Part shown: one piece after another, positions 61-64,000 of the stretch | Position numbering within the stretch: position 1 is the first letter of the stretch | Layout: the number at the start of each line of letters is the position of its first letter | Assembly: GCF_025685415.1 (NCBI RefSeq) | Contig: NZ_JAGSYB010000001.1 | Coordinates: 3,844,001-3,908,000 of the forward strand | DNA length: 64,000 nt | DNA from: Terriglobus aquaticus | GTDB taxonomy: Bacteria; Acidobacteriota; Terriglobia; Terriglobales; Acidobacteriaceae | Reading direction: 5' to 3' | Notes under the pieces: model-generated | Databases searched by the model: none | What the model saw: only the letters and a program-made list of their open reading frames with translations | What the model was told of the DNA's origin: nothing | Made by a program: the position numbers and the translations under genes

Positions 61-816
61 ATGTCTACCCAAATCGAGTGCCCGGCAGAGTTGCAGATCG
101 TCATCCCGGCAAAGAACGAGTCACGCTTCCTGCCAGATCTGCTGACCTCGTTGACCCGGCAGGATTACCCGCTCATCCGTTCTACGAAAGTCTTCGTTGC
201 TGACGCCGCATCCACCGACGATACCGTCGCCCTGGCACTCAGCTTTCGTCCCACCCTCGACATCCACATCCTGCCCGGCGGCATGCCTTCCGTTGGTCGC
301 AATCGCGGCGCCCGCGCCGGCAACGCGCAGTTCACGCTCTTCCTCGACGCCGACGTAGAGCTGCAGGACCCGACCCTCATCCGCCGTGCTCTGGAAGCGG
401 CTCAGCGCCGCAAATTCCACTGCGTCACCGTCGACATCCAGTGCAAGGACGGCCGCCCTTCCGACCGCTGGCTCTACCGCGGCAACAATCGCATGCAGCG
501 CCTCTCGCAGTGGTTCCTCCCTTTCGGCACCGGCATGTTTCTCCTCTTCCAGAGCGCGCGCTTCCACGAACTCGGCGGCTTCAGCGAAGACGCCCTTTTC
601 GCCGAGGACTACCTGCTCACCAAGCAGGTTTCGCCGCTCCGCTTCGCCGTGCTCAACGGCGAAGTCTGGACCAGCAACCGGCGGTTCCAGCGCACCGGCC
701 GCCTTCGCATGGTCACTCTCTTCTTCTGGACATTGCTGAACAGCAATAACCGCCGCCACTTCCAGCGCGACCACGGCTACTGGCGTCCCGCTGCAGCCAA
801 GGCGGCGAACAGTTAG
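61..816 (+). CDS. Family 2 glycosyltransferase (GT-A fold)
   Basis: This 251-residue protein has the layout of a family 2 glycosyltransferase, which transfers a sugar from a nucleotide-sugar donor to a lipid or surface polymer. The N-terminal strand reads IVIPAKNE (residues 13-20), followed by the VADAASTDDT nucleotide-binding loop (46-55) and a FLDADVE segment whose DAD (96-98) is the metal-binding DxD motif. A later FAEDYLL segment supplies the usual acidic pair. There is no transmembrane helix except perhaps a weak C-terminal one. The ATG at 61 is preceded by AGAGGAG at 45-51. The gene converges on the FNT channel gene with a 4-base overlap. The acceptor is unknown. Confidence 0.85.
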   Translation: MSTQIECPAELQIVIPAKNESRFLPDLLTSLTRQDYPLIRSTKVFVADAASTDDTVALALSFRPTLDIHILPGGMPSVGRNRGARAGNAQFTLFLDADVELQDPTLIRRALEAAQRRKFHCVTVDIQCKDGRPSDRWLYRGNNRMQRLSQWFLPFGTGMFLLFQSARFHELGGFSEDALFAEDYLLTKQVSPLRFAVLNGEVWTSNRRFQRTGRLRMVTLFFWTLLNSNNRRHFQRDHGYWRPAAAKAANS

Positions 817-1718
817 ATCGGCGGCAGCCCCGTAAAGCTGCTGTTCAGCCTCTCCCGCCGCTCGCCCGGCCGCTGGTCCTCGATCTTTCTCAGGTCGCTA
901 TCGCCGATCACCTGGCCGTACTCCAGCACGGTCACCATCAGCACGCCGCCACACACATTGCCAGCCACCGCCAAACCAAGCCAGCGCGGATAGGCCCACC
1001 ACGGCAGGTGGTGCGTCAGCACGGCGGCGATCACCTCGCCACTGCCCGCGATGCAGTGCGCAAACCCGCCCAGCCCCACCACAAACGCCAGGCTGAAGAT
1101 GATCATCACCGACCCGGTAATTGAGTGCGAGCCACTCACCAGCCACGCCACGCTCGCAATCATCCATCCGCCCATCACGCCGCTCCAGAAGATGGTCGCA
1201 ACAGGATGCTGCGATGCTTCCACGCCCAGGTGCACCAGCGCTTCCAGGATCTTCGGATTGAGCGCCGGCGTGTAACTGGCCAGGCCTGCAAACGCTGCCG
1301 CGCCCAGCACGTTTCCGGGCAACACCAGCGACCACAGCCGCAGGGTGCTCCACACATGCTTCTTGCGCGCCAGCACCAGCGCCACCGGGTACAGCGTGTT
1401 CTCGGTGAAGAGCTGCGCGCGCCCCAGGATCACCGCGATAAAGCCAAGCGGATAGAACAGCTTCGCACAGAACGACGCCACCGGACCGTTGCCCAGCAGC
1501 GCCAGTGCGATCGCCGTTCCCAGCGCCGACAAGCCCATAAATGTTCCGCCAGCAAATCCCGAGATAAACAGCGACGGCGCCGTCCGCTTCAGTTCATCTT
1601 CGGCATTGCTCAGCACCTGCCGATAGATCTGCTCGGCGCTGGGTCGCTCCAGGTTCTGCTGGCTTGACTGTCCGGCGGCCGCTGCGTCAGCGGCCTGGGT
1701 GGCTTCTTCGGTTGGCAT
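813..1718 (-). CDS. Formate/nitrite transporter (FNT) family channel
   Basis: This 301-residue integral membrane protein fits the FNT family of pentameric channels for small monovalent anions such as formate, nitrite or hydrosulfide. A hydrophilic N-terminus of about 45 residues precedes six hydrophobic segments. The LGRAQLFTENT segment and the later GFAHCIAGSGEV segment match conserved FNT half-helix regions, and the His in the second aligns with the family's pore histidine. The long N-terminal tail and lack of nitrite or formate enzyme genes nearby leave the substrate open; YfdC-like members are another possibility. Its 3' end overlaps the glycosyltransferase by 4 bases, tail to tail. Confidence 0.85.
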   Translation of the reverse strand: MPTEEATQAADAAAAGQSSQQNLERPSAEQIYRQVLSNAEDELKRTAPSLFISGFAGGTFMGLSALGTAIALALLGNGPVASFCAKLFYPLGFIAVILGRAQLFTENTLYPVALVLARKKHVWSTLRLWSLVLPGNVLGAAAFAGLASYTPALNPKILEALVHLGVEASQHPVATIFWSGVMGGWMIASVAWLVSGSHSITGSVMIIFSLAFVVGLGGFAHCIAGSGEVIAAVLTHHLPWWAYPRWLGLAVAGNVCGGVLMVTVLEYGQVIGDSDLRKIEDQRPGERRERLNSSFTGLPPI

Positions 1719-1762
1719 GCTCAGGTCTGATGCGCCGCAGACCTCGCCATTCGCTTCTCACC

Positions 1763-3118
1763 CTAACTTTGCTTTCCGCTTGCCACGTCGCGCCCCGTCA
1801 GCACCTCGCGGACCAGCGGTTTCCGGACGTAGTCCTGATCCGCAATCCGCAGCGTCTCGCGCAGCATCCGCTCCGGCTCGTCCAGCAGCGCCGCATCCTC
1901 GCTGAACATCGTGACCAGCGGCTGTCCCTCCGCGATGCGATCCCCGAGCTTCACGTGCATCTCGATCCCGGCGTGCGCCGCAACCGGCCCGCCCGGCACC
2001 TCGCGCCCCGCACCCAGCCGCTGCACCGCCCAGCCCACCTCGGTGCAATCCATGCTCACCAGCGTTCCGCTCCGGTCCGCCTTCAGCACGCGCGTCGCCG
2101 CAGGCTTGTGCTGCGCCGCGGGATCGTCAAACACGCTCACATCGCCCCCGTGCAGCCGCACCATCTCCAGCCACTTGGCATACGCGCTGCCGTCACGCAG
2201 TAACTCTGTTGCCCGCTGCTTTCCTTCCTCCGCACTCGAAGCTTCCGCGCCCAAAAACAGCATCCACCCGGCCAACGTCGTCGACAGATCCACCAGGTCG
2301 GCACTCAGCGCATGAGCGCGGTTCTGCAGAATGTCGACGCACTCCCAAACCTCAACCCAGTTGCCCGCAAATCGACCCAGCGGCTCGTCCATGCGCGTCA
2401 GCAGCGCAACCGTCTTTGTCCCGCTCGCCTCACCCGTCGCGACCATCAGCTCTGCCAGGTGCCGCGCGTCTTCATCGCGCCGCATGAACGCTCCACTGCC
2501 GGTCTTCACATCCAGCACCAGCCCATTCAGCCCGCTCGCCAGCTTCTTGCTCATGATGCTCGCGCAGATCAGGTTCGGCGACTCCACCGTCCCGGTGTGA
2601 TCGCGCAACGCATACAGAATGCGGTCCGCCGGCACCAGGTTCTTCGTCTGCCCGATCATGCTCGCACCGCACGCTTGCAGCACGCGGCCAAACTCCGCGA
2701 GCGACAACTGCGTGTTGTAGCCCGGGATCGTCTCCATCTTGTCCAGCGTTCCGCCGGTATGCCCCAACGACCGCCCGCTGATCATCGGATCCGCCAGCCC
2801 CGCCGCCGCCACAATAGGCGCAATCAGCAGCGACGTCTTATCACCCACGCCACCCGTCGAGTGCTTGTCCACCGTGAACTTGCCCAGAAACGCCGAGTCG
2901 AACGTCTCTCCCGAGTACCGCATCGCCGACGTCAAATCCGCCAACTCCCGCCGCGACAGTCCACGCTGAAACACCGCCATCAGCAGCGAAGCAATCCGCG
3001 CATCGGTGATGCTCCCGTCCACCACACCGACCACAAAGCTCTGGATCTCTTCGCGAGAAAGCTCCTTGCCATCGCGCTTCCGCAGGATCATGTCGATCGG
3101 ATGAATCGGTGAACTCAT
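1763..3118 (-). CDS. deoA: Thymidine/pyrimidine-nucleoside phosphorylase
   Basis: The protein cleaves thymidine or related pyrimidine nucleosides with phosphate to the free base plus (deoxy)ribose 1-phosphate, in nucleoside salvage. It has the family-3 glycosyltransferase fold: an N-terminal helical domain (PIHPIDMILRKRDGKELS), the phosphate-binding KHSTGGVGDKTS loop, the signature SGRSLGHTGGTLDK, and a C-terminal alpha/beta domain. Length 451 is normal for the family. The ATG at 3118 is preferred over an in-frame codon at 3136 because it overlaps the upstream stop as ATGA, suggesting translational coupling with the small membrane gene. It is the last gene of a cdd-orf-deoA unit. Thymidine phosphorylase versus broader pyrimidine-nucleoside phosphorylase cannot be separated by eye. 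Confidence 0.93.
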   Translation of the reverse strand: MSSPIHPIDMILRKRDGKELSREEIQSFVVGVVDGSITDARIASLLMAVFQRGLSRRELADLTSAMRYSGETFDSAFLGKFTVDKHSTGGVGDKTSLLIAPIVAAAGLADPMISGRSLGHTGGTLDKMETIPGYNTQLSLAEFGRVLQACGASMIGQTKNLVPADRILYALRDHTGTVESPNLICASIMSKKLASGLNGLVLDVKTGSGAFMRRDEDARHLAELMVATGEASGTKTVALLTRMDEPLGRFAGNWVEVWECVDILQNRAHALSADLVDLSTTLAGWMLFLGAEASSAEEGKQRATELLRDGSAYAKWLEMVRLHGGDVSVFDDPAAQHKPAATRVLKADRSGTLVSMDCTEVGWAVQRLGAGREVPGGPVAAHAGIEMHVKLGDRIAEGQPLVTMFSEDAALLDEPERMLRETLRIADQDYVRKPLVREVLTGRDVASGKQS

Positions 3119-3498
3119 AGACAGGCTCCTAGCCATTCGTCGCTCTCGATCTGGCGAAGCTTGCCTTCGGTAAACCTAAGTGCTGTACCGAAATAGTGGT
3201 GATCGCAATACCAGACCCGACGACCTTCTTGCGCGATGATGAGTAAGTCGTCGCCGCGTCCGATCGTATTTAGCCCGAGCGCCTTCACTTCGGCTTCAGC
3301 CTCGCTCAGCGGCTCGCCCAGCGCGAATCGCCCTCTCATTTTCGATGTCTGGATCGCCGTCGCGGCACGTGCACGATCGTCCTGCTGCTGCCCTCTAACC
3401 TCGACAAAGGTTGTAATCGCAGCCGCGATGGCTACAAAGCCTGCTACTACGACCACCATGCCACGAACGACTCGCAACCATCTCGATTTGCCCCTCAT
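3115..3498 (-). CDS. Small single-pass membrane protein in salvage operon
   Basis: This 127-residue protein of unknown function has an N-terminal transmembrane segment (about residues 12-30, VVRGMVVVVAGFVAIAAAI) after a basic start, then a soluble domain probably on the periplasmic side. The domain ends in a small beta-rich region with WYCDHHYFG and a final Cys. The start ATG at 3498 overlaps the cdd stop (ATGA) and its own stop overlaps the thymidine phosphorylase start (ATGA), so it is locked between two pyrimidine-salvage enzymes. Upstream in-frame codons would overlap cdd by much more. I recognise no family. A role linked to nucleoside salvage is only inferred from the coupling. Confidence 0.7.
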   Translation of the reverse strand: MRGKSRWLRVVRGMVVVVAGFVAIAAAITTFVEVRGQQQDDRARAATAIQTSKMRGRFALGEPLSEAEAEVKALGLNTIGRGDDLLIIAQEGRRVWYCDHHYFGTALRFTEGKLRQIESDEWLGACL

Positions 3499-58050: not shown

Positions 58051-59463
58051 ATGGCCATTTCCACAAAGTCCGGCAGCGCCTACGACCTCATCGTCATCGG
58101 CTCCGGTCCCTCCGGCCAGCGCGCCGCCATCTACGGCGCCAAGCTCGGCAAGCGCGTCGCCCTCGTCGAATCCCGAGAGGTCGTCGGCGGCGCCTGCATC
58201 AACACCGGCACCATCCCCTCCAAGACCATGCGCGAGGCGGTCCTCCACCTCTCCGGTTACAACTACAAGTCCATCTACGGCATGAACTACCGTGTCAAAG
58301 AACGCATCACCATGGCCGACCTGGCCTTCCGCGTTCAGCACGTCATCAAGACCGAGATCGACGTCACCGAGGCCCAGCTCTCCCGCAACAACATCGAAGT
58401 CCTCACCGGCGTCGCCTCCTTCGAAGACTCCTCCCACGTCCGCGTCACCAACTCCCGCGGCTCGACCGTCTATGAGGCGGAAAGCATCATCATCGGCACC
58501 GGCACCAAGCCGGCCTCCAGCCCCAAGGTGCCCATCAACGGCAGCACCATCATCAACTCCGATCTCATCCTCGAGCTCAAAAACCTCCCGTCCACCATGA
58601 TCGTCGTCGGCGGCGGTGTCATCGGCGTCGAGTACACCTGCATGTTCGCCGCGCTCGGCGTCCGCGTCACCCTCATCGAGCGCCGCCCCCGCCTCCTCGA
58701 ATTCGCCGACCAGGAAATCATCGAGGCCCTCAGCTACCACCTCCGCGACTCCCGCGTCACCATGCGCCTCAACGAAGAGGTCGAGTCCGTCACCGAAAAC
58801 GAGGACGGCACCGTCACCGCCAACCTCGAGAGCCGCAAAAAGGTCCAGGGCGGGGCATTGCTCTACGCCGTCGGCCGCCAGGGCAACGTCGACGAGCTCA
58901 ACCTCTCCGCCATCGGCGTCGAAGCCGACAACCGCGGCCGCATCCCCGTCGACAAGGACTTCCGCACCAAGTGCCCGTCCGTCTACGCCGTCGGCGACGT
59001 CATCGGCTTCCCCTCGCTCGCCTCCGTCTCGATGGAGCAGGGACGCATCGCCGCCGCCCGCGCCTTCGGCGACGACACCATCCTCTCCAACCCCAGCTTC
59101 TACCCCTACGGAATCTGGACCATCCCGGAGATCAGCTTCCTCGGCAAAACCGAAGAGCAGCTCACCGAAGAAGACGTGCCCTACGAAGTCGGCGTCGCCT
59201 ACTACCGCGAGATCGCCCGCGGCCAGATCCGCGGAGACACCACCGGCCGCCTCAAGCTCATCTTCCACCGCGAAAACCGGTCCATCCTCGGCGTCCACAT
59301 CATCGGCGAAGGAGCCTCCGAACTCCTCCACATCGGCCAGGCCGTCATGGCCCTCGGCGGAACCGTCGACTACTTCGTCGAAACCGTCTTCAACTACCCC
59401 ACCCTCGCCGAGTGCTACAAAGTAGCCGCCTTCAACGGCCTAAACCGCCTCCGCCGGGACTGA
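58051..59463 (+). CDS. sthA: Soluble NAD(P)+ transhydrogenase, Si-specific
   Basis: A 470-residue flavoprotein that moves hydride between NADPH and NAD+. It has the FAD site VIGSGPSGQRAA, ACINTGTIPSKTM, the NAD(P) site VVGGGVIGVEYTCMFAALG, CPSVYAVGDVIGFPSLA, and the dimerisation domain ending FNYPTLAECYK. The first segment has Cys49 but Thr54 where the redox-active disulfide's second Cys would be, as in STH and not in lipoamide dehydrogenase or glutathione reductase. It is preceded by about 230 bases without a gene. Confidence 0.93.
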   Translation: MAISTKSGSAYDLIVIGSGPSGQRAAIYGAKLGKRVALVESREVVGGACINTGTIPSKTMREAVLHLSGYNYKSIYGMNYRVKERITMADLAFRVQHVIKTEIDVTEAQLSRNNIEVLTGVASFEDSSHVRVTNSRGSTVYEAESIIIGTGTKPASSPKVPINGSTIINSDLILELKNLPSTMIVVGGGVIGVEYTCMFAALGVRVTLIERRPRLLEFADQEIIEALSYHLRDSRVTMRLNEEVESVTENEDGTVTANLESRKKVQGGALLYAVGRQGNVDELNLSAIGVEADNRGRIPVDKDFRTKCPSVYAVGDVIGFPSLASVSMEQGRIAAARAFGDDTILSNPSFYPYGIWTIPEISFLGKTEEQLTEEDVPYEVGVAYYREIARGQIRGDTTGRLKLIFHRENRSILGVHIIGEGASELLHIGQAVMALGGTVDYFVETVFNYPTLAECYKVAAFNGLNRLRRD

Positions 59464-59660
59464 TTCGACTGGGTCGAAATTAGCTGCACTTCAGGGCTTT
59501 TCTCGTTTGGTGCGGCTCTTCCGGAGAGTCGCTGAACCTGTCCATGATGCTGGTAAGGCCGCAATTCCACTGCCAGCCCGCATCATTGCGGTGACATCAA
59601 TCAGATGACGTGGCGCACCAAGGGTCCCTTCGTTATGCTCACGCATAAAGGAGAGTTTCA
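59464..59660. other. 197-base AT-richer leader of the GHKL-nuclease gene
   Basis: Composition changes from very GC-rich to average just after the sthA stop. It has no recognised gene or tRNA. The strong ribosome binding site of the next gene lies at 59647-59655 (AAAGGAGAG). A promoter is expected but I could not point to a clear one. Confidence 0.4.
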
Positions 59661-61589
59661 TTGGATAACGGGGTTAAGCAGGGCTGCCTGTTTGAAGAAG
59701 ATTTTCTTGTTCGCACTCTTGGACCTATCGCAAACTCTCCGGATGTCGCCCTGACTGAACTCGTTGCTAATGCCTGGGATGCTGGCGCTTCTGAGGTCAA
59801 CATTGAGCTTCCTTCAGACCTTGAGGAGAAGCTCCTCGTGCGCGATGACGGAACCGGCATGACCGAGCAGATGTTCCGAGACAAATGGATGCGACTTGGC
59901 TACGACCGTGTTCGCCACCAAGGTAGTCAAGCAGAGTTCCCTCCGGAAAGACGCCATCTAGCGAGGCCCGCCTACGGTCGCAATGGTGTGGGCAGACACG
60001 GAATGCTGTGTTTTGCACCCGAGTACGAAGTCAGAACCCGCAGAGACGGAGAAGAGACAAAGTTACAGATTGTAACTACGAGTGGTGCAAACCCCTTTGA
60101 GATAGCGGATGCTAAGACAAGGAAAGCTGCTGGACATGGTACAACGCTAAGTTGCCGCGTGACCCGTAATCTCCCTTCGGCTCCCCGTACACGCGAGATT
60201 CTTGCAGCGCGCTTTCTGCACGATCCCCAATTCAGGGTGAGCGTGAACGGCCAGTTCATCCCTTTAGCGGAGCACAAGGGCCTCGTCTCTGAAGCTGAAA
60301 TCATCTATTCGGACGGATTCAAAGCGCAAGCCTTCTTCGTGGACTCAACCAAGTCTTCTCGCCGAACCCAATACCAAGGGGTGGCTTTCTGGGTAGGCAA
60401 TCGCCTTGTCGGGGAGCCGGGATGGGCGGCTGGAGGAACGATATTCTTGGACGGTAGAACGCGCATAGCTAAGCGCTACACAGTGGTGGTGAAAACTGAT
60501 GATCTCTTTGAAGATGTCCTGCCAGACTGGACGGGTTTCCGCCGCACTGAACGGGTGAAAGCGCTGATGAGCGAGGTAAGTAAGTACGTTCGAAAGATCT
60601 TCTTGCAATTGTCCGAAGAGCGAATGTACGAGACCAAAGCTAGCGTCTACCGCGAGCATGCGGAAGAGTTATCGTCTCTTAGTTCTTTAGGCCGGCGAGA
60701 TTTGCAAGATTTTGTCGATCAGGTGACTCAAAGTAACCCTACTATAAGTTTTGAAAGCCTATCCGCCTCTGTGGCTGCTGCCATTTCGCTGGAGCGAATG
60801 AAAGGCGGAGCGCAGTTGCTGGAGAGGCTGACAAGCCTCTCAGACGAAGATGTTCTTGGTCTAGATAGACTTCTGAGTGAATGGTCCGTTAGAGATGCTC
60901 TGATTGTTTTAGATGAAATAGATCGCCGCCTAACGGTTTGCTCTGCGATAGAAACTTTGTCCGCGGATCCTAAAGCGGATGAACTCCATTCGTTACATCC
61001 GTTGATAGTTGAATGTCGTTGGCTCTTTGGACCAGAGTTTGATTCTCCAGAATTTGTCTCAAATATAACGCTTAACTCGGCTTTGCATGAACTGTTCGGT
61101 AAGAAGGCACTGAATGGGGAAGTAGAGAACGGTCGCAAGCGACCGGACATACTTGTTCTGCCGGAGAGAAGTTTGTCAGGGACCGCCACGGAACAAATTG
61201 ACGAGGTCTCGGGCATGCCGGTGATTTCCCAGGTCCTACTCATCGAGTTAAAGCGCGGTGGAGCGGAGATCAATCGAGACAATGTGAACCAAGCGTCAAA
61301 CTATGTAGAGGATCTTCTTCGGAGCGGTCTTATAGACGGTCAACCGACTTTCAGAGCTTTTGTTATTGGTCATTCCTACTCTCCGAAGATCGAGCTTAGC
61401 CGTCGAATAGGTGAACGCGGCAACGTTCAAGTCGTCACGTACTCTCAACTAGTACGCCTAGCCAATAAGCGGCTTTTCCGTCTGAAAGAGAAGCTAAGCG
61501 AGAGGTACGCGGAGGCTTCGTCTGCTGCGCTGCTAGACCGGGTTATAGCTGAGCCTTTCCAGGCTACTCTTGACGGTACTGTGGCTTAA
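59661..61589 (+). CDS. GHKL ATPase fused to a nuclease-like PD-(D/E)xK domain
   Basis: A 642-residue protein with a TTG start at 59661, preceded by AAAGGAGAG. The N-terminal Bergerat fold is complete: ELVANAWDAGA (N-box, Glu33 to Asp40), RDDGTGM (61-67), YGRNGVGRHG (105-114) and GHGTTL (148-153). An S5-like second domain with QGVAFWVGNRLVGEPGW follows, then a helical linker. The C-terminal part has RPDILVL (Asp496) and VLLIELKRGG (Glu529 and Lys531), a D...ExK arrangement like that of restriction-type nucleases. The fold order resembles prokaryotic MORC-type ATPases of conflict systems. It is AT-richer than its neighbours and stands alone. Function unproven; a DNA-targeting defence gene is my inference. 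Confidence 0.75.
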   Translation: MDNGVKQGCLFEEDFLVRTLGPIANSPDVALTELVANAWDAGASEVNIELPSDLEEKLLVRDDGTGMTEQMFRDKWMRLGYDRVRHQGSQAEFPPERRHLARPAYGRNGVGRHGMLCFAPEYEVRTRRDGEETKLQIVTTSGANPFEIADAKTRKAAGHGTTLSCRVTRNLPSAPRTREILAARFLHDPQFRVSVNGQFIPLAEHKGLVSEAEIIYSDGFKAQAFFVDSTKSSRRTQYQGVAFWVGNRLVGEPGWAAGGTIFLDGRTRIAKRYTVVVKTDDLFEDVLPDWTGFRRTERVKALMSEVSKYVRKIFLQLSEERMYETKASVYREHAEELSSLSSLGRRDLQDFVDQVTQSNPTISFESLSASVAAAISLERMKGGAQLLERLTSLSDEDVLGLDRLLSEWSVRDALIVLDEIDRRLTVCSAIETLSADPKADELHSLHPLIVECRWLFGPEFDSPEFVSNITLNSALHELFGKKALNGEVENGRKRPDILVLPERSLSGTATEQIDEVSGMPVISQVLLIELKRGGAEINRDNVNQASNYVEDLLRSGLIDGQPTFRAFVIGHSYSPKIELSRRIGERGNVQVVTYSQLVRLANKRLFRLKEKLSERYAEASSAALLDRVIAEPFQATLDGTVA

Positions 61590-61594
61590 GCCAG

Positions 61595-61624
61595 GTCCCA
61601 TGTCCGGCTTCTCGGACATGGGAC
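61595..61624 (+). terminator. Terminator after the GHKL-nuclease gene
   Basis: GTCCCATGTCCG pairs with CGGACATGGGAC (12 bp) around GCTTCT, five bases after the stop, followed by ATTTGTTG. It marks the end of the unit. Confidence 0.8.
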
Positions 61625-61665: not shown

Positions 61666-62100
61666 ATGCCACCCGATCCAACCACTACGCAGAAGATCGT
61701 GCGGCACACCCTGCGCTGGACAACACCGATCCTCGTCCTCGCGGCTCTCGGCGGTACCACCATGGATGGCATCTTCGCCGGAGGGCGCCTCTGGTCCAAC
61801 CTCCGCCCCAGCGCTGCAGTTGAGTCGCCGGACCATCGCTACCGCGCCCTCATCTACGTCAACGGGGAACACGACCACGCGGCCGGGGTCATTGTCGAGC
61901 ATCAGTGGCACGGCATCTACCTCGGCCAGTTCTCGGCCATGGCCACGGACGATCCTATAGACCGGATCGTCATCCTTTGGGCCGCGCCCGATCGTCTCGC
62001 CATCCGATGCGATCAGTGCCTCCGAGAAAGTACCGAAATCGCTAAGAGCAACTGGGGCAATCTTCACTTCAGCTACGACCTTGGCAAGGCTGCGCGCTAA
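61666..62100 (+). CDS. Hypothetical protein with N-terminal hydrophobic segment
   Basis: A 144-residue protein whose ATG at 61666 precedes MPPDPTTTQKIVRHTLRWTTP and a hydrophobic segment ILVLAALGGTTMDGIFA (about 20-36). A soluble domain follows with YRALIYVNGEHDHAAGVIVEHQW and LAIRCDQC, the last giving two Cys. The composition is back to GC-rich, unlike the gene just upstream. No family was recognised. Confidence 0.6.
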   Translation: MPPDPTTTQKIVRHTLRWTTPILVLAALGGTTMDGIFAGGRLWSNLRPSAAVESPDHRYRALIYVNGEHDHAAGVIVEHQWHGIYLGQFSAMATDDPIDRIVILWAAPDRLAIRCDQCLRESTEIAKSNWGNLHFSYDLGKAAR

Positions 62101-62204: not shown

Positions 62205-62239
62205 GCAACGGGCCAGCCCATCAAGGGCTGGCCCGTTGC
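62205..62239 (+). promoter_or_regulatory. 15-bp hairpin before the CxxH-type small gene
   Basis: GCAACGGGCCAGCCC pairs perfectly with GGGCTGGCCCGTTGC across ATCAA. It ends 21 bases before the ATG at 62261, just upstream of the CAGGAG site. It could terminate the preceding transcript or attenuate the following one. Confidence 0.55.
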
Positions 62240-62260: not shown

Positions 62261-62740
62261 ATGGGCCAGACCGTAGGATTCCCCAGTTGCCGCCACATCC
62301 TCACCAACGGCGAGAAGTGCGAGTCGCCCGCCTGGAGCGGACGCCACTTCTGCTACTACCACACCCTCTACCGCCGCCGGAACAAGCCCAATAAGAAGAC
62401 CACCCCGGCCCTCAACGTCGCCATCGTCGACAACGAAGACAAGTGGCACCGCGTCGAAGCCATCGAACCCTTCGCCAAGCGCTACACCCTCGGCCCGCTC
62501 GAGGACGCCGCCTCCATCCAGGTCGCCATCTCCACCGTCCTCAACGCCCTCGCCGACCAGCGCATCGACCACGGCCGAGCCTCCACCCTCCTCTACGGCC
62601 TCCAGCTCGCCAGCAACAACCTCCGAGCGCTCCAGACCGCCACGGACAGCACCCCAAAACCGCCCGTAACTCCCTGTCCCGCAGTAACTTACGCGCAAGT
62701 TCCTGCCAGTCAAGAACTTACAGCCCCAATCCAACCCTAA
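62261..62740 (+). CDS. Small Cys/His-motif protein, acidobacterial-type
   Basis: A 159-residue protein starting MGQTVGFPSCRHILTNGEKC, with the Cys/His set CRH...C...CYYH (residues 10, 20, 31, 34) that resembles a small zinc knuckle. It is followed by YRRRNKPNKK, a helical region (AISTVLNALADQRIDHGRAS) and a C-terminal tail with PVTYAQVPASQELTA. The tail DNA contains repeated AACTTAC motifs. I recall close relatives of this protein in several acidobacteria. Function unknown; nucleic-acid binding is plausible. Confidence 0.7.
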   Translation: MGQTVGFPSCRHILTNGEKCESPAWSGRHFCYYHTLYRRRNKPNKKTTPALNVAIVDNEDKWHRVEAIEPFAKRYTLGPLEDAASIQVAISTVLNALADQRIDHGRASTLLYGLQLASNNLRALQTATDSTPKPPVTPCPAVTYAQVPASQELTAPIQP

Positions 62741-62872: not shown

Positions 62873-64000
62873 ATGCCGGAACCCAACCAACGAATGAACA
62901 CCGGCGTCCCCGGTCTGGACGACATCCTCCAAGGCGGCCTGCCCGGCGGCGAAATGTACCTGCTCGAAGGCGACCCAGGCACTGGCAAGACCACAATCGC
63001 CATGCAGTTCCTGCTGGAAGGCATCCGCCGCAACGAACCCGTTCTCTATCTCAGCTTGTCCGAACCCGAACAGGAACTGCGCAGATCCGCTGACTCACAC
63101 GGCTGGGACTTCTCCGTCGTTCCTGTCGTCGAGTTCATCCCGGACGAAGCTTCCCTCGGTTCCGATGAGCAATACACCGTCTTCCATCCGACCGACGTAG
63201 AGCTGTCCAGCACCATCGACCGCATGTCCGCCGAGGTCGAGAAGGCGAAGCCAACCCGCCTCGTCATCGACTCACTCTCTGAACTCCGCCTGCTTGCCGT
63301 CGACAACATCCGCTATCGCCGCCAGTTGCTCGCCCTCAAGCGCTTCTTCGCGGGCCGCAGAACAACCGTGCTCATGCTTGACGATCGCACCTCCGATGGC
63401 CACGATCGCCAGCTCCAGAGCATCGCTCACGGCGTGATTCGCTTGGAAAAGCTGGCGCGCACCTTTGGCGTCACGCGCCGGCAGATCGAAATCCTCAAGC
63501 TTCGCGGATCCACCTTCCGCGAAGGCTTCCACGACTACAACATCCACTACGAAGGCGTGATCGTCTACCCGCGCCTGGTCGCCGCAGAGCACAGCACGAC
63601 CTTCGAGCACACCGTCGTTCAGAGCGGTCTGCCGCAACTGGACAAGCTGTTCGGCGGCGGCATCCCCCGTGGCTCCAGCACGCTGATCATCGGACCCACA
63701 GGAAGTGGCAAAAGCTCCATCGCCATGCAGTACGCCTATACGGCAGCGAGCCAAGGCGAGCGCGCCATCATCTATGCGTTCGACGAAGTTCTGCGCACCG
63801 CGCAGGAGCGTGCCGAAGGTCTGGGCCTCGACGTCCGCCCCCTGATCGACGCCGGCACCCTTGCCATGTCACAGGTCGACCCCGCGGAGCTTTCGCCCGG
63901 CGAGTTCATCTGGCAGATCCGTCGCGATGTAGAAGACCGGCATACCAAGCTTGTCGTGATCGATAGTCTCAACGGCTTCCTCAATTCCATGCCGGGTGAA
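62873..64000 (+). CDS. KaiC/RAD55-like double P-loop ATPase (3' end cut by window)
   Basis: A reading frame opens with ATG at 62873 (or 62894) and runs off the window without a stop: 376 codons here. It has two RecA-like repeats. The first has MNTGVPGLDDILQGGLPGGE and Walker A GDPGTGKT (33-40), with LSLSEPEQEL beyond. The second begins SGLPQLDKLFGGGIPRGS with GPTGSGKSS (about 273-281) and AFDEVLRTAQERA; LVVIDSLNGF is a Walker B. This is the KaiC-like ATPase layout, found in many non-cyanobacteria with sensor kinases. The frame upstream has no start after the previous gene's stop. No kaiA or kaiB is visible. Confidence 0.88.
   Translation, partial: MPEPNQRMNTGVPGLDDILQGGLPGGEMYLLEGDPGTGKTTIAMQFLLEGIRRNEPVLYLSLSEPEQELRRSADSHGWDFSVVPVVEFIPDEASLGSDEQYTVFHPTDVELSSTIDRMSAEVEKAKPTRLVIDSLSELRLLAVDNIRYRRQLLALKRFFAGRRTTVLMLDDRTSDGHDRQLQSIAHGVIRLEKLARTFGVTRRQIEILKLRGSTFREGFHDYNIHYEGVIVYPRLVAAEHSTTFEHTVVQSGLPQLDKLFGGGIPRGSSTLIIGPTGSGKSSIAMQYAYTAASQGERAIIYAFDEVLRTAQERAEGLGLDVRPLIDAGTLAMSQVDPAELSPGEFIWQIRRDVEDRHTKLVVIDSLNGFLNSMPGE

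Follow-up and report, generated by a model that had tools for sequence, protein, structure and literature searches.

A stand-alone GHKL ATPase–nuclease gene of Terriglobus aquaticus, a probable single-gene defence system of the paraMORC3/GHKL-Shedu kind from a clade without linked C5 methylases

The paraMORC3 proteins combine a GHKL–S5 module with a restriction-fold nuclease carrying the residue set E-D-ExK. Their distribution is wide and sporadic, and a subset of them, mainly from proteobacteria and Bacteroidetes, is stand-alone (Iyer, Abhiman and Aravind, 2008; PMC2292703). In the same study, paraMORCs were proposed to be parts of restriction-modification (R-M) systems, and MORC proteins sensu stricto were described as having a GhXhhpXXRhl motif in the S5 domain (PMC2292703). 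More recently, VcSduA of V. cholerae, a GHKL-Shedu protein (type I-D) of the kind once annotated as paraMORC3, was characterised as a single-gene anti-phage system with the layout GHKL-PD-(D/E)xK (PMC12137116; Nat Microbiol 2025). It protects against Drexlerviridae phages while sparing the host cell, and this defence requires both E27 in the ATPase and K557 in the nuclease (PMC12137116). For other Shedu nucleases, sensing of DNA ends has been described (PMC12904381; PMC12409362). A GHKL ATPase and a C-terminal D-ExK domain are also found in the restriction enzymes BbrUII/HgiDII (NF050001), which have a neighbouring C5 methylase; the target of the HgiDII methylase is GTCGAC (PMC5867850).

The window analysed here, a stretch of 64,000 nucleotides from Terriglobus aquaticus, contains one gene of this type (Table 1). 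Its product has a GHKL domain with all four ATP-binding motifs, followed by a predicted S5-fold domain and by a conserved C-terminal nuclease of the restriction-endonuclease fold with E-D-ExK; it is thereby like paraMORC3, including in its stand-alone occurrence. It differs from paraMORC3 as described in that its clade has an additional invariant QxxxY motif and lacks linked C5 methylases. With VcSduA, to which it is likened by description, it has in common the single gene, GHKL motifs I-IV, a clamp-like middle part, and a C-terminal PD-(D/E)xK domain. A first-pass annotation, made from the sequence alone, had recognised no named single-gene system with this order, but both paraMORC3 (2008) and VcSduA (2025) have it. 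The architecture is already known; the gene appears to belong to a clade of its own, apart from the phage-paraMORC3/BbrUII branch.

Table 1. Features of the GHKL ATPase–nuclease gene; coordinates are those of the window.
Feature	Residues	Coordinates	Strand	Evidence
GHKL ATPase - S5 - helical linker - PD-(D/E)xK nuclease gene, paraMORC3-like, stand-alone	642 aa	59661..61589	+	intact ORF, start TTG, stop TAA; 77-row family alignment
Shine-Dalgarno AAAGGAG		59647..59653	+	7 nt 5' of TTG; direct sequence reading
Bergerat-fold ATPase domain	~1-205	59661..60275	+	Pfam HATPase_c_3 E 5e-16; model matches; invariant residues
ATPase motifs	N-box ELVANAWDA 33-41; DDGTGM 62-67; GRNGVGRHG 106-114; GHGTT 158-162			
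S5-like transducer region (predicted)	~206-295	60276..60545	+	Hsp90/MORC/GyrB model matches; conservation
Helical linker (predicted)	~297-434	60549..60962	+	DSSP on model m87a022436850
PD-(D/E)xK nuclease domain	425-622	60933..61526	+	separate model; structure matches; SduA_C profile match
First catalytic acid	E441	60981..60983	+	E 77/77; aligned with Shedu helix-1 Glu
RPD motif	R494-P495-D496	61140..61148	+	R, D 77/77; P 76/77
ExK motif, within IELKRG 528-533	E529-L530-K531	61245..61253	+	K 77/77; E 73/77, D 4/77
QxxxY motif, RecB/Shedu-type	Q544...Y548	61290..61304	+	each 77/77
GC-rich 12-bp hairpin, probable terminator		61595..61624	+	directly 3' of stop codon

Relatives were gathered from plasmids, from a scan of genome contigs, from viral contigs, and from genomes of the phylum, and the resulting family alignment comprises 77 full-length rows with 29-51% identity to the window protein. 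The four Bergerat motifs claimed in the first-pass annotation are all present, and their key residues (E33, N37, D62, G64, G66, G106, G109, G111, R112, and G160) are invariant in the 77 homologues. In the S5-like region, position 271 is Lys in 71 of the 77 rows and Arg in the other 6; from general knowledge of the GHKL family, we take K271 to be a candidate for the Lys finger that would contact ATP. The model of the whole protein (pLDDT 80.8, pTM 0.53) is confident within domains and uncertain in their arrangement. Its residues 1-320 match TRAP1/Hsp90, MORC2/3, GyrB, and MutL with Z-scores of 15-17; the matches to MORC2/3, TRAP1, and GyrB cover both domains together, at 8-10 A rmsd. These model matches support the MORC-type likeness suggested initially and point to a MORC/MutL-like GHKL ATPase. 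The likeness lies in the ATPase plus S5 architecture: unlike the window protein, MORC2/MORC3, TRAP1/Hsp90, GyrB, and MutL carry no PD-(D/E)xK nuclease on the same chain.

For the C-terminal part, the first-pass annotation had read RPD and IELKRG as a nuclease-like motif, a reading that would have fallen with a predicted structure lacking a nuclease fold or with an ExK that was not conserved. Neither was observed. Both segments are in place, with D496 and K531 found in every row and E529 replaced only by Asp. An AlphaFold2 model of the domain alone, built from 39 rows, has the PD-(D/E)xK fold (pLDDT 85, pTM 0.83). E441, Q544, and Y548 had been missed; with them, the nuclease site is better defined than by D...ExK alone. 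The model matches FokI (Z 8.7, 139 residues), BspD6I (Z 8.7), and EndoMS (Z 8.3), as well as DNA-bound EcSduA (8ps5; Z 7.1, 142 residues over the whole domain, 3.7 A), which is absent from the first 50 rows of plain Foldseek and present only in the realigned list. MspJI and AspBHI are also among the matches, followed lower down by the PD-(D/E)xK nucleases Kpn2I, NucC, McrC, Can2, and Cap4; RPB5 chains occur as well. As FokI, BspD6I, EndoMS, and EcSduA fall within 1.6 Z of one another, the predicted structure shows the superfamily and not Shedu in particular.

Sequence searches of the PDB with the nuclease domain gave nothing meaningful, so it is profile-profile and structural evidence that carries the link to Shedu. 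When the family nuclease alignment was compared by hhalign with seven SduA_C domains, E-values of 2.3e-7 and, in reverse, 5.1e-8 were obtained. The match spans 151 columns, and in it the first Glu, the Asp, the ExK, the Q...Y, and the TY-x2-L segment at the end all coincide. As controls, shuffling the columns (three times), reversing the alignment, or using the family's own middle domain gave 0.04-0.5, and HSDR_N_2 gave 0.007 against the family nuclease. For the nuclease domains of phage paraMORC3, E-values are 1e-10 to 1e-11 against SduA_C and 7.4e-8 to 6.5e-5 against the window family. By profile-profile comparison, the family's nuclease domain is homologous to SduA_C. On the curated Pfam definition (DUF4263/SduA_C), the protein would not count as Shedu: it has no match to PF14082 (SduA_C) at E<1 and does not reach the Pfam gathering cut-off. 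Pfam matches on the nuclease domain (HSDR_N, HSDR_N_2, SduA_C) are all weak; among relatives, HSDR_N_2 was matched by 17/39 (best 0.0044) and SduA_C by 3/39 (best 0.024), and the PADLOC SduA model matched 5 of the 77 full-length members (best 9.8e-5). The Shedu/PD-DExK profile search proposed in the first-pass annotation was therefore positive at the profile-profile level and negative at the Pfam Shedu cut-off. The window protein has in common with Shedu SduA (PF14082/DUF4263; EcSduA 8ps4/8ps5, SduA 8ti8) the E...D...ExK...Q...Y order and the TY-x2-L strand-helix, and differs from it in having a GHKL ATPase as its N-terminal part and in missing the gathering cut-off. The nuclease is Shedu-like and a possible formal member of Shedu.

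Other GHKL-nuclease groups were also encountered. A different GHKL-plus-nuclease gene, with a C-terminal ELKRP, is present in a congener (L006; G016:C279, ~1438-3327 of the locus) and in a viral contig (L120). Its nuclease domain aligns with that of the window family at E 1e-8, and the GHKL-nuclease architecture therefore seems to have arisen or spread in several subfamilies. A further group, from the viral contigs L112 and L115, has a nuclease domain that aligns with that of the window family at E 1e-10, a closer match than the one between the window family and Shedu.

The gene is single, as its upstream neighbour stops at 59463 and the first likely start after it is at ~61669, and its TTG start is backed by the N-termini of family members. 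Its composition (GC 51.7%, GC3 0.512) stands apart from that of the eight neighbouring genes (GC 62-69%, GC3 0.76-0.91). Coordinates, composition, and the AAAGGAG sequence agree with the initial description of a single, AT-richer gene with a strong ribosome-binding site and a TTG start; no sigma-70-type promoter was found for it. Of the terminator described at the same time, the hairpin is clear (dG -25.5 kcal/mol for a 57-nt stretch, z -4.2 against shuffles), whereas its role as a terminator is only probable: the T-tract (ATTTGTTGCT) is weak, and a pattern scan found terminator-like sites no more often than by chance.

Members of the family occur in Pseudomonadota, Bacteroidota, Bacillota, Chloroflexota, Acidobacteriota, Verrucomicrobiota, Myxococcota, and Thermodesulfobacteriota, and also in one Methanoperedens archaeon and in four viral contigs, the last of these found, all full length, when the viral contigs were searched with the alignment; a search with the single protein found no relatives there. 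The nearest relatives of the window protein come from Methylophilaceae, Comamonadaceae, Gallionellaceae, and Burkholderiaceae. An orthologue is absent from the 18 congeners searched, and only 5 of 396 genomes of the phylum have a match at E<=1e-20, including the genome itself, distant ones, and one broken copy. With its foreign composition, its absence from the congeners, and its patchy presence in the phylum, the window gene looks foreign and is taken to be a recent horizontal acquisition.

In a relative from the same family (L125; G119:C5:17516-19362), the homologue is broken into two frames and adjoins a phage-type integrase gene; it is an acquired defence gene in decay. Broken frames are found at some other family loci as well. 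Such cases, together with the stand-alone position and foreign composition of the window gene, would fit a decayed or inactive remnant. The chance of this is negligible, and we reject it: the copy in the window retains its full length, all of its catalytic residues, and the conserved ends, and its ribosome-binding site is good. A MutL/EndoMS-like enzyme for DNA repair or chromosome maintenance, acting on the cell's own damaged DNA, would be in keeping with the resemblance of the GHKL domain to MutL and of the nuclease fold to EndoMS, and with the position of a few relatives near imuA/dnaE2 or ligD genes or an IMS polymerase. However, the patchy, acquired distribution, the foreign composition, and the defence-island neighbours of relatives argue against a housekeeping role, and relatives possess a separate MutL; a repair function is thus very improbable and was likewise rejected.

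Around the gene, similarity to relatives at the DNA level breaks off where the upstream gene stops (59456-59471) and is found again only inside a KaiC-like gene (~62,890). No insertion boundary could be drawn by empty-site comparison with relatives, because the two flanking genes are not neighbours in them. The KaiC-like gene, a tandem ATPase at 62873-64000 that runs past the end of the window, is present in 12 of the 18 congeners at other places, and the flanks are therefore not syntenic. Between the nuclease gene and the KaiC-like gene lie two small ORFs (61669-62100 and 62261-62740). In relatives, nothing corresponding to their DNA is present next to the flanking genes; their GC3 is typical of the host. 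At 62205-62239, just 5' of the second small ORF, two 15-bp arms form a perfect inverted repeat around a 5-nt loop (GCAACGGGCCAGCCC).

In a tree of the GHKL region, phage paraMORC3 and haloarchaeal BbrUII-like proteins group together (support 95/92), and the C-terminal parts of these two align at E 5e-37. The window family falls in another part of the tree, where it makes up 40 of the 43 rows of a group with support 97/97; the deepest forks of the tree are weak. With the same weak support for deep forks, the window protein falls in a different clade from the paraMORC3 of Escherichia phage PhiR44_1. A phage protein annotated as paraMORC3, used as a stand-in for VcSduA, belongs to the other clade too; it is 27% identical to the window protein, and BLAST is significant over the ATPase only. 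The window clade appears to be separate from the phage-paraMORC3/BbrUII branch, and the new point is that it has no linked C5 methylase. Such a methylase lies beside the gene at 8 of 8 tested loci of that branch and at 0 of 82 loci of the window family, a contrast between loci and not proof of mechanism, VcSduA as described being also without a named methylase. Prophage paraMORC3 genes (L017, from Escherichia phage PhiR44_1; L140, L141, L145, L105, and L106) all have a C5 methylase in the stretch examined and have their C-terminal domain in common with BbrUII-like enzymes, and paraMORC3 and the BbrUII/HgiDII restriction enzymes may be one family with two names. No C5 methylase was detected in the organism's own genome (99.99% complete) by a search that was positive in 10 of 14 control genomes; N6/N4-type methylase matches were found there at three distant places, and a methylase other than a C5 one could still protect the host.

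These data bear on the possibility of a Type II restriction enzyme like BbrUII/HgiDII, which would cut a fixed sequence while the host is protected by a methylase encoded elsewhere, for instance one of the three N6/N4 matches. All 77 members match the NCBIfam BbrUII/HgiDII profile and PADLOC REase_II models, and the architecture recurs in a haloarchaeal protein of the BbrUII-like kind, the C-terminal part of which aligns with the window family at E 9e-5. However, the window protein scores 104.8 bits (E 4e-30) against an equivalog cut-off of 550 bits, its best match is confined to ATPase residues 29-219, and both the methylase contrast and the GHKL tree, in which BbrUII goes with phage paraMORC3, separate the two. 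A Type II enzyme is therefore unlikely.

The loci of relatives point to defence. Among 82 non-redundant family loci, 25 have at least one tested defence or mobility family nearby, compared with 0 of 17 control stretches; HsdM was found at 8, HsdR at 4, HsdS at 3, Shedu at 4, and any tested integrase at 8. The 99 nearest large neighbours include N6_Mtase, Mrr_cat, ResIII, GmrSD_N, Eco57I, MmeI, HSDR_N, SduA_C, and Phage_integrase, with 2-4 members each, and PADLOC returned the same kind of list. In three Hyphomicrobiales loci (Rhizobium, Martelella, and Mesorhizobium), a separate Shedu gene directly follows the homologue. The neighbourhood comparison proposed in the first-pass annotation thus revealed restriction and defence genes around relatives; beside the window gene itself, no defence gene was recognised within the window, and across the family loci there is no constant partner gene. 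In the Acidobacteriaceae relative G024, the homologue lies directly after hsdM-hsdS-hsdR on the same strand, which, together with the Hsd genes at other loci and with the view of paraMORCs as R-M parts (Iyer 2008, PMC2292703), would suit an accessory of Type I R-M, that is, a GHKL remodeller or nuclease aiding or backing HsdRMS and stranded here without its partner. This has a slim chance: at 74 of the 82 loci no HsdM was detected, the recurrence of several defence families is more in keeping with a defence island than with an obligate partner, and the gene stands alone within the window.

Taken together, the best explanation is an ATP-gated DNA nuclease of the paraMORC3/GHKL-Shedu kind that serves as a single-gene defence against phages or other DNA invading the cell; we assign it a probability of about 0.7. 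The gene had initially been put forward as the best candidate in this stretch for a new defence or DNA-damage system. Its candidacy for defence is supported by the genomic context of its relatives and by VcSduA, but it is not a new kind of system, and a DNA-damage role has little support.

GHKL machines such as gyrase, MutL, Hsp90, and MORC work by closure of an ATP clamp. By analogy with characterised GHKL proteins, VcSduA among them, ATP would cause two subunits of the nuclease to close up via their N-terminal domains. The closed dimer would trap DNA in a cavity bounded by the ATPase and the middle regions, in the manner of MORC, MutL, and gyrase. Closure or hydrolysis could then join the two C-terminal nuclease domains or free their active sites, and the trapped DNA would be cut. 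The least certain step is the trigger. Instead of a recognition site that lacks methylation, the enzyme might respond to some structural property of the DNA (ends, topology, crossings, or replication intermediates). Such a trigger is proposed because the clade has no accompanying C5 methylase and the host genome has none; the choice between self and non-self therefore probably works differently here. A structural trigger in place of methylation is nevertheless a tentative idea.

The coupling of GHKL ATPases to nucleases in immunity is a broader question, for which this clade offers one-gene, methylase-free examples in which what is sensed can be tested. A clear contrast is available in the related branch, where this architecture goes together with a C5 methylase. 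The clade also bears on the proposed prokaryotic origin of the eukaryotic MORC silencing proteins. Somewhat speculatively, the window gene may represent a separate and widespread clade of GHKL nucleases that are methylase-free. These would distinguish foreign DNA from the cell's own by ATP-driven clamping on an unusual feature of the DNA (ends, crossings, topology, or replication forks), and neither base modification nor sequence would decide. If true, such a mechanism would stand as a sister to that of the methylase-paired BbrUII/paraMORC3 restriction enzymes, and might have given rise to them or derive from them.
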